A DNA stretch of 64,000 bases, from positions 62,001-126,000 of the forward strand of contig NZ_PQVF01000010.1 in NCBI RefSeq assembly GCF_002920915.1, read 5' to 3'. Source of the stretch: Solitalea longa. Its GTDB lineage: Bacteria; Bacteroidota; Bacteroidia; Sphingobacteriales; Sphingobacteriaceae. Position numbers and translations under genes: made by a program. Of this stretch, positions 3,601 to 4,419 are shown piece after piece (position 1 is the first letter of the stretch; each line of letters begins with the position of its first letter). The notes beneath the pieces were generated by a model. The model was not told the DNA's origin, made no database searches, and worked only from the letters and a program-made list of their open reading frames with translations.

Positions 3601-3625
3601 AAAAACCCTGCCGGGGAGACAGGGT
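3601..3625 (-). terminator. Terminator downstream of the unusual tRNA
   Basis: Read on the minus strand, ACCCTG (3625-3620) pairs with CAGGGT (3610-3605) around a 9-nt loop and is followed by a T run (TTTTTAGTTTT). It lies 36 nt beyond the tRNA 3' end and fits a dedicated tRNA transcript. Confidence 0.75.
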
Positions 3626-3660
3626 GTTTTAGTACCAATCAATAAACCTTATGAAGTTTG

Positions 3661-3773
3661 CTGTAGGGGAAGGAGTCGAACCTTCACGGAGCGGTTAGCC
3701 AAGCAAAGCTTGATTTTCCGGACTCTCCGCCACCGAGACAAGGAGGTGTGTCTGCCAATTTCACCACCCTACA
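3661..3773 (-). tRNA. Atypical class II tRNA, anticodon GUC (Asp-type), long variable arm
   Basis: The minus strand folds into a complete cloverleaf of 113 nt. Acceptor TGTAGGG pairs with CCCTACA; the D stem is GTG/CAC with GG in its loop; the T arm is GAAGG-TTCGACT-CCTTC; the discriminator is G73; CCA is not encoded. The anticodon arm CCTCC-TTGTCTC-GGTGG has one T-T mismatch, U33 and anticodon GUC. The variable region is 44 nt and forms its own rod: CGGAG/CTCCG, CGG/CCG and a CAAGC-TTT-GCTTG tip. G73, G34-U35-C36, C38, G10 and G2-C71 match known AspRS identity positions, but the long arm and the D-arm region (TGGTGAAATTGG) resemble tRNA-Leu, and a long arm plus G73 also suits SerRS. Position 37 is T, which is rare. 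The charging enzyme is unresolved. It has its own promoter and terminator. Confidence 0.8.
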
Positions 3774-3831
3774 TTATGTTTAAGAACTTCGGCTTTGAGT
3801 TTTTTTAATTTCTTTGCCTTTGTTGTTGATA

Positions 3832-3863
3832 CAAATATAGAGCAAACACTAATTCGTTGCAAA
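3832..3863 (-). promoter_or_regulatory. Bacteroidota-type promoter for the unusual tRNA
   Basis: On the minus strand TTTG (3863-3860) and TATATTTG (3839-3832) are separated by 20 nt, a full match to the -33 TTTG / -7 TAnnTTTG pattern. Transcription would start about 50 nt before the tRNA 5' end. Confidence 0.75.
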
Positions 3864-3936: not shown

Positions 3937-4419
3937 ATGTTTGAAAAGAAGCTCCAAATTTTACAAGTTGATAAACTCGATTTACAGATCTTGTCGATGT
4001 TAATGAATGATGCCACAATTCCTTATACCGATATTGCAAAAGAGTTAATCATCTCAGGAGGTACCGTACACGTACGTATGAAAAAACTACAGGAGATGGG
4101 CATTGTAACCGGTTCAAACCTGGTTGTAAACCCCCAGCGCATCGGCTTCGATGTATGCGCGTTCCTGGGAATCTTTCTTGAAAAAGGTTCGCAATACCAC
4201 GATGCTGTTAATCAGTTGAGTCAGGTAAAAGAAATTGTAGAGTTACACTACACTACGGGATTATATAGTATGTTCGCCAAAATTATCTGTCGCGATACTG
4301 CTCACCTTCGCGAAGTATTAAATGAAAAAATCCAGGTAATCTCAGGAATTCAACGAACTGAAACATTTATTTCGTTAGAAGAAAGTATCAAACGTCAAAT
4401 TACATTACTTGACAACTAA
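3937..4419 (+). CDS. Lrp/AsnC family transcriptional regulator
   Basis: At 160 residues it has the usual family length. An N-terminal winged helix-turn-helix (about residues 12-60: LDLQILSMLMNDATIPYTDI, then IISGGTVHVRMKKLQ) is followed by a RAM/AsnC ligand-binding domain (about 75-150, with YTTGLYSMFAKIICRD). Proteins of this kind form octamers or higher oligomers on DNA and respond to amino acids or related metabolites. The ligand here is unknown. It is divergent from the unusual tRNA and 13 nt ahead of a small lipoprotein gene, probably in one transcript with it. Confidence 0.9.
   Translation: MFEKKLQILQVDKLDLQILSMLMNDATIPYTDIAKELIISGGTVHVRMKKLQEMGIVTGSNLVVNPQRIGFDVCAFLGIFLEKGSQYHDAVNQLSQVKEIVELHYTTGLYSMFAKIICRDTAHLREVLNEKIQVISGIQRTETFISLEESIKRQITLLDN

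Follow-up and report, generated by a model that had tools for sequence, protein, structure and literature searches.

The locus and the tRNA-like RNA

The window analysed here is the whole stretch of 64,000 nucleotides from Solitalea longa (contig NZ_PQVF01000010.1), and on its minus strand, at positions 3661–3773, lies a full class II cloverleaf with anticodon GUC, G73, U37, C38 and a U29·U41 mismatch. The acceptor stem has 7 bp, the D stem 3 bp, the anticodon stem 5 bp and the T stem 5 bp. The features of the locus are as follows.

3937–4419, plus strand: divergent AsnC/Lrp-type regulator of 160 aa (Pfam AsnC_trans_reg and HTH_AsnC-type; NCBIfam)
3832–3863, minus strand: promoter TTTG-N20-TATATTTG (3863–3860 and 3839–3832; sequence, by eye)
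3776–3787, minus strand: leader motif GUUCUUAAACAU, recurring in many relatives (by eye)
3661–3773, minus strand: tRNA-like RNA body, 113 nt, with G73 at 3661 (sequence; covariance model R1; covariation in relatives)
3767–3773, minus strand: 5' acceptor strand UGUAGGG, U1 pairing with A72 at 3662, the GatCAB-type identity pair (conservation in copies)
3730–3746, minus strand: tRNA-Asp-type anticodon arm, loop UUGUCUC, anticodon GUC at 3739–3737, U37, C38, U29·U41 (sequence)
3686–3729, minus strand: 44-nt variable arm with helix CGGAG/CUCCG, a GG/CC step, a GGAAAA..CUAAC internal loop and an apical hairpin (sequence, alignment, covariation)
3660, minus strand: C74, encoded as in the ordinary tRNA genes of the same genome; CCA is unencoded (sequence)
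3633–3656, minus strand: 3' trailer CUUCAUAAGGUUUAUUGAUUGGUA, a seed element in the diverged form that the window has (sequence comparison of copies)
3601–3624, minus strand: rho-independent terminator with hairpin, T run and C-rich loop (sequence, by eye)

The upstream TTTG-N20-TATATTTG is presumably the Bacteroidota-type promoter consensus; the leader motif is, as we take it, similar to a boxA element, and the internal loop of the variable arm is one that we would liken to the UAA/GAN motif. An earlier note on this DNA, made from the sequence of the window, had described a complete minus-strand cloverleaf with its own promoter and terminator and had pointed to U37 and a U–U pair in the anticodon stem as oddities; the cloverleaf is read directly from the sequence, the expression signals are recognised by eye, and both oddities are confirmed. 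The AsnC-like partner, the GatCAB-type pair U1–A72, the gatB correlation and the conserved trailer became visible only with relatives.

ARAGORN called no tRNA in the window, and Rfam gave neither a match at gathering nor, in the surroundings of the RNA, a tRNA match at E ≤ 1. The single-sequence fold is no better than that of shuffled sequences (z −0.43; 65 of 200 shuffles as good), and thus the lone window sequence is weak evidence for the fold, while the comparative evidence is strong. The genome of S. longa carries 56 ordinary tRNA genes; the count of normal tRNA-Asp genes proposed in the earlier note gave three with anticodon GUC, so the RNA is not needed for reading Asp codons.

Conservation of the RNA family

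Seven copies of the RNA were found by BLAST in the S. longa genome, and five of these form a tandem array with a period of 150 bp. This array (L031, G000:C33:104504-105219) has one promoter for its five copies, with neither a trailer seed nor a regulator. Over 60 related genomes, BLAST matches occurred in 31, from which five ordinary tRNA-Leu(GAG) genes (L026–L030) and a partial match in G048 were subtracted, leaving 25; the covariance model added G050, so that 26 relatives are counted as RNA-positive. These cross-matches agree with the Leu-like body described earlier, as the D-arm and core resemble those of tRNA-Leu.

A pattern scan of named genomes gave at least 120 loci, those listed being mostly from Pedobacter and Mucilaginibacter with some chance matches. 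Rescanning without an anticodon requirement, confined to loci that already had a GUC copy, yielded at least 144 distinct copies, of which all but 3 are from one bacterial family; with L024 and L025 set aside the number is 141. Among the matches listed, GUC, G73, C74 and U1–A72 occur in 144 of 144. With covariance model R1 the family was found in 67 of the 395 class genomes searched, at 67–124 bits and lengths of at least 107 nt; this number is a reading of the score table, in which everything else listed reached at most 64.7 bits over 76–87 nt. The window copy scores 124.1 bits, although it is among the sequences from which R1 was built. When 296 genomes from the phylum were searched with covariance model R2, matches came from 32. 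Two of these genomes, G650 and G658, lie outside the class and hold family members, each as three copies in tandem. The matches in two others are short: that in G522 reads as tRNA-Leu, and that in G093, which is also among the lower-scoring R1 matches, is a short-arm relative. Because the members were found with patterns and models made from the family, a bias toward its invariants is possible.

The earlier note had taken a lack of homologues sharing the fold as grounds for calling the RNA a decaying pseudogene; such homologues are abundant. In 33 family members including the window copy, the cloverleaf pairs form in 95.8% of cells, and compensatory changes amount to 42 doubly changed cells in 9 pairs, compared with at most 8 cells in slid controls. 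In 48 longer variable arms, the inner helix has a mean run of 4.96 with its own partner compared with 2.95 with shuffled partners, and the strict GGANAA motif is present in 95 of 206 distinct bodies. The comparison thus shows that the RNA belongs to a cloverleaf family conserved in Bacteroidota, whose GUC-type anticodon arm is nearly invariant and which has G73 and U1–A72. The family is apparently uncatalogued; literature searches, which drew on the sources in part, returned no prior description of it.

The short-arm relative (L326:4338-4414, in f49) is 76 nt long, has the loop CUAUCUC with anticodon AUC, keeps U1–A72 and G73, and is the sole case of its kind observed. The spacers of some tandem copies (L018, L055, L077) look repetitive by eye, with AAGTC..GACTT-type stretches. 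An origin from phages or plasmids was considered and rejected: blastn found no match to the RNA there, and the model did not recognise as family members the pattern matches in 4 viral contigs, 16 other-lineage loci and 1 unclassified locus, while it did recognise 3 loci of the lineage in the same check.

The divergent regulator

For the window regulator, AsnC is the best NCBIfam model with 174 bits, below its cut-off of 227, while Lrp reaches 54 bits. A divergent gene of the Lrp/AsnC type lies upstream of the RNA in 97 of the 120 loci listed in the first set, in which some genomes were sampled repeatedly, and in 33 of 63 class-wide loci, covering 15 bacterial families at distances of about 91–252 nt; in one of the 33 (L255) the contig ends within the gene. 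The two genomes from outside the class have this divergent gene as well. The remaining 30 loci, 29 of which were inspected, have other neighbours, and all loci of f3, f63, f64 and f66 are of this kind. Among the 60 relatives, a regulator with at least 50% identity is present in 26 of 26 RNA-positive and 11 of 34 RNA-negative genomes. In one RNA-less genome, the AsnC-like gene (G018:C1:596299-596766) has an in-frame TAA.

Identity elements and decoding marks

It has been reported in the part of PMC9976931 drawn on here that the identity elements of bacterial tRNA-Asp are G73, G10, G34, U35, C36 and C38, that U1–A72 is the determinant admitting Asp-tRNA-Asn to amidation, that G1–C72 and U20a are the antideterminants excluding Asp-tRNA-Asp from it, and that the AspRS of E. 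coli is helped by G1–C72. The AspRS identity set read by the earlier note in the single copy holds up across the class: G73, G2–C71 and C74 occur in 74 of 74 copies, U35 and C36 in all 73 readable ones, G34 in 69 of 73 and C38 in 72 of 74, while G10, which the window copy keeps, is found in 16 of 74. Where the anticodon is not GUC, in four of 73 copies, it is UUC or CUC, those of Glu, and since Glu is the other substrate of GatCAB these copies count for a GatCAB reading; one of them (L251) departs elsewhere too.

U1–A72 is present in 74 of 74 copies. In S. longa itself, tRNA-Asp has G1–C72, tRNA-Gln has A1–U72 with A73, and tRNA-Asn has U1–A72 with G73; apart from tRNA-Asn, a first U occurs only in four genes for tRNA-Met. 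The RNA therefore joins the anticodon arm of tRNA-Asp to an acceptor end of the tRNA-Asn type. The bases that follow G18–G19, looked at for the antideterminant U20a, are CAGA in 46, CAGC in 19, CAAA in 3 and others in 3 of 71 readable copies, numbered by eye. A C at position −1, a potential partner of G73, was seen in 50 of the 74 copies from the class, compared with 6 of the 56 tRNA genes of S. longa, and is absent from the window copy.

The core of an elongator tRNA is present in the family, with a 7/5 cloverleaf, U8 and A14 (73 of 74 each), G18–G19 and a TUC loop; the decoding marks are loosened or lost. U33 is kept in 60 of 73 copies, and position 37 is U in 64, C in 4, G in 4 and A in 1, i.e., a purine in 5 of 73, whereas U33 and a purine at 37 are found in 56 of 56 ordinary tRNA genes of S. 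longa; the window copy has U33 but U37. Decoding of Asp codons by the family is therefore unlikely as judged from these positions, in line with the suggestion of the earlier note that the RNA is specialised or non-translational. The same note had considered charging by SerRS, with Ser inserted at Asp codons. SerRS recognises the long arm and G73 and ignores the anticodon, according to the part of PMC7609411 used, but the near-invariance of G34-U35-C36 disfavours this idea.

Two further candidate roles of the anticodon arm were rejected. Mimicry of an anti-Shine–Dalgarno sequence by CACCUCCUU is broken by CCUUC copies and by CCCUC in other families, and pairing of the anticodon with the GAC of the arm motif UUGACCAC was dropped, as the motif is absent from short-arm members.

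Co-occurrence with GatCAB, AsnRS and GlnRS

GatCAB was scored by the gene of its subunit, gatB, which is present in 306 of 395 class genomes (294 over cut-off). All 67 RNA-positive genomes have gatB, and 239 have gatB without the RNA; the association gives a Fisher value of 9e-9, uncorrected for descent. Among the 60 relatives, 25 have both, 1 has the RNA without gatB, 19 have gatB without the RNA and 15 have neither. AsnRS was found in all 60 (58 over cut-off, two as fragments). Since genomes without GlnRS need GatCAB for Gln-tRNA, the comparison was restricted to the 40 relatives with GlnRS, in which the corresponding numbers are 23, 1 (G029, in which gatB was not found), 1 (G047) and 15, i.e., 38 of 40 are concordant. 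In G014 the body has been shortened by a deletion; with this broken copy counted as absent, the table reads 22, 1, 2 and 15 and 37 genomes are concordant. As AsnRS occurs throughout the relatives, GatCAB has no obvious other duty where GlnRS is present. In the regulator tree within the bacterial family of S. longa, the RNA-negative genomes fall into approximately two groups, for which about two losses suffice; independent events are thus few, and the gatB link is clustered by descent.

In the exception G047 (f12), a single frame of 1106 aa (L348:2304-5624), directly behind a gatA-like gene, encodes a fusion of GatB with a bacterial AspRS, so that Asp charging and amidation would be joined there without the RNA. 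gatB scores similarly low in seven other f12 genomes. The gene asnA is absent from S. longa and occurs in 2 of the 60 relatives, both RNA-negative, and is thus uninformative. It has been reported, in the part of PMC4206432 drawn on, that 67–68 genera have AsnRS, GlnRS and GatCAB together, that Bacteroidetes are among 18 of them without asparagine synthetase, and that the carrier in such genera is taken to be tRNA-Asn.

Trailer and stand-alone seed elements

In 143 copies, the trailer GGUUUAUAAUUGGUU occurs in 44 and a diverged form in 6 more, including the window copy, all at loci of the Sphingobacteriaceae type; another shared stretch follows 23 others, and the remaining 70, among which first copies of tandem pairs are common, have none of these. 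Five Sphingobacteriaceae genomes that lack gatB have lost the body, while trailer and terminator remain beside the regulator (L280, L281, L283, L284, L285); in two small genomes a remnant of the acceptor and T arm is left with the trailer, and at L279 and L282 neither body nor trailer was observed. The trailer element also stands alone directly behind promoters (L334–L339). With up to two mismatches it is found in 111 of 121 genomes, usually several times, compared with no or few matches for the reversed control. Multicopy stand-alone elements of Sphingobacteriaceae (L334–L339, L340–L347) consist of a promoter, the seed NGGUUUAUAAUUGGUUAG and a terminator with a C-rich loop, a layout like that of FopS.

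The trailer resembles the seed of Bacteroides FopS, with 19 of 2000 shuffles as good, a likeness that does not suffice for a claim of descent; 17 loci compared with Rfam had no match at gathering, in a release that may not include FopS. The seed was not seen outside one bacterial family, although the tRNA body is conserved there. Other families have recurring trailers of their own by eye (L207, L208, L239, L246; L212, L215, L235–L237), e.g., GGUUAUUUUGGGUUUAUUGUUAAU in f15, and in f3 the terminator loop GUUUGUGAUGGUUC recurs. A pairing of CUAACC in the variable arm with GGUUAG in the trailer was suggestive and was rejected, because arms with a changed sequence do not preserve it and the trailer is found even where the body is missing. 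Judged by these trailers, an sRNA is probably a further product of the transcript in part of the Sphingobacteriaceae.

Proposed function and alternative explanations

The reading that we favour, by a small lead over even odds, is that the RNA is a non-decoding, tRNA-derived carrier: AspRS would load it with Asp, GatCAB would amidate this to Asn, and the RNA would serve to make or sense asparagine. AspRS would charge the RNA through G34-U35-C36, C38 and G73; since U1–A72 is present, unlike in tRNA-Asp, GatCAB would accept the Asp-RNA and convert it to Asn-RNA. If an Asn-RNA with an Asp anticodon were to decode, Asn would enter proteins at Asp codons, which would be harmful, and this may be why the decoding marks were lost: the missing purine at 37, the loose position 33 and the large variable arm would keep the RNA off the ribosome. 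The product may supply asparagine or report its synthesis under the divergent AsnC-like regulator, and in part of the Sphingobacteriaceae 3' processing of the tRNA type would also release the trailer as an sRNA. Charging and amidation together would explain the mix of identity elements, the lost decoding marks, the AsnC-type partner and the gatB pattern. Against this reading stand U1–A72 itself, in view of the preference of the E. coli enzyme for G1–C72, the scarcity of G10, the few losses behind the gatB link, the exceptions G029, G014 and G047, the 239 gatB-positive class genomes without the RNA, and the conserved trailer, which indicates an sRNA role superfluous to the model.

That trailer fits a regulatory sRNA in the manner of GcvA/GcvB, an alternative to which we assign roughly a quarter of the probability. 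An amino-acid-sensing regulator would control a divergent mRNA-pairing RNA, the tRNA domain acting as a stabiliser or processing module with the seed in the trailer. In the GcvA–GcvB pair the regulator is likewise divergent from the RNA, and GcvB has no tRNA domain. The divergent gene at 33 of 63 loci fits this explanation, as do the survival of trailer and terminator beside the regulator without the body, the stand-alone elements and the likeness to the FopS seed. The seed, however, accompanies just 50 of 143 copies and was found in a single bacterial family, and seeds leave the invariant U35-C36, G73 and U1–A72 and the gatB correlation unexplained; with an sRNA role alone, just the AsnC-type partner and the trailer are accounted for.

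It is rather doubtful that the RNA is a charging sensor, which would bind AspRS/GatCAB or the AsnC-like protein and signal Asp/Asn supply by its charging state, with no net asparagine formed. The same identity elements and linkage speak for it, but five tandem copies in S. longa suggest bulk over signalling. Far less probable is a translational tRNA with a long arm that decodes Asp or inserts Ser: the canonical core, G73, the long arm and the U33 of the window copy would suit it, but three normal tRNA-Asp genes exist, the purine at 37 is lost in 68 of 73 copies and U33 in 13 of 73, and U1–A72 stands where tRNA-Asp has G1–C72. A decaying tRNA pseudogene, to which the silence of ARAGORN and Rfam and a few decayed relatives (L254, without an anticodon loop, and L295, the G014 copy) could point, is refuted by conservation, for the window RNA has seven copies in its genome, relatives in 67 of 395 class genomes, compensatory stem changes and conserved neighbours, and it is not a pseudogene.

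Comparison with known systems

The closest counterpart of the proposed Asp-to-Asn carrier is tRNA-dependent asparagine synthesis in Deinococcus, Thermus and Bdellovibrio, which, in the part of PMC4206432 drawn on, shares AspRS-type charging (for the RNA a predicted step), U1–A72 and the keeping of GatCAB despite AsnRS and GlnRS. Its carrier is described there as an ordinary decoding tRNA-Asn charged by a non-discriminating AspRS, whereas the RNA here is separate, with an Asp anticodon arm, a long arm and relaxed decoding marks. Allo-tRNAs, as far as this part of PMC7609411 covers them, are also non-standard class II molecules, some with GUC, but have 8/4 or 9/3 acceptor/T branches and come from other phyla, while the RNA is 7/5 in the alignment. 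FopS and GibS, in the part of PMC11697453 used, are likewise multicopy seeds with a terminator and, unlike the RNA, have no tRNA domain.

Within S. longa, tRNA-Asp(GUC) shares GUC, C38, G73 and a similar anticodon arm with the RNA but has G1–C72, a short variable loop and A37, whereas the RNA has U1–A72 and a Leu-type body. Its tRNA-Leu, alike in D-arm and core, has A73 and 81–86 nt, in contrast to G73 (74 of 74), 107–175 nt and a different anticodon. A tRNA-Ser type would account for the long arm and G73 and not for the invariance of the anticodon. The tRNA-Other of Bacillus cereus is a non-translational tRNA, with a tRNA fold and a role outside decoding; it differs in its synthetase and has no variable-arm domain, and we know of no tie to a regulator or to GatCAB.

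Implications

The RNA is a candidate carrier in Bacteroidota for Asn formation with GatCAB. In its broader form, that many Bacteroidota convert Asp to Asn on a dedicated non-decoding RNA, which AspRS would recognise through the anticodon arm and GatCAB through the first pair, with an AsnC-type gene divergent from it, we consider the proposal evenly balanced between true and false. Why bacteria with AsnRS and GlnRS retain GatCAB is partly open in the part of PMC4206432 drawn on. If the carrier reading is true, the RNA-bearing Bacteroidota would have such a reason, and the two jobs of a tRNA would have been separated, recognition by synthetase and amidotransferase being kept and decoding given up, so that a tRNA would have become a biosynthetic or sensing adaptor. 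Lineages with UUC or CUC anticodons may do likewise with Glu and Gln, and a large RNA family missed by ARAGORN and Rfam would be added. If the amidation step turns out not to hold, what remains is a new class of conserved RNA, derived from tRNA and linked to a regulator of the AsnC type over such evolutionary depth.
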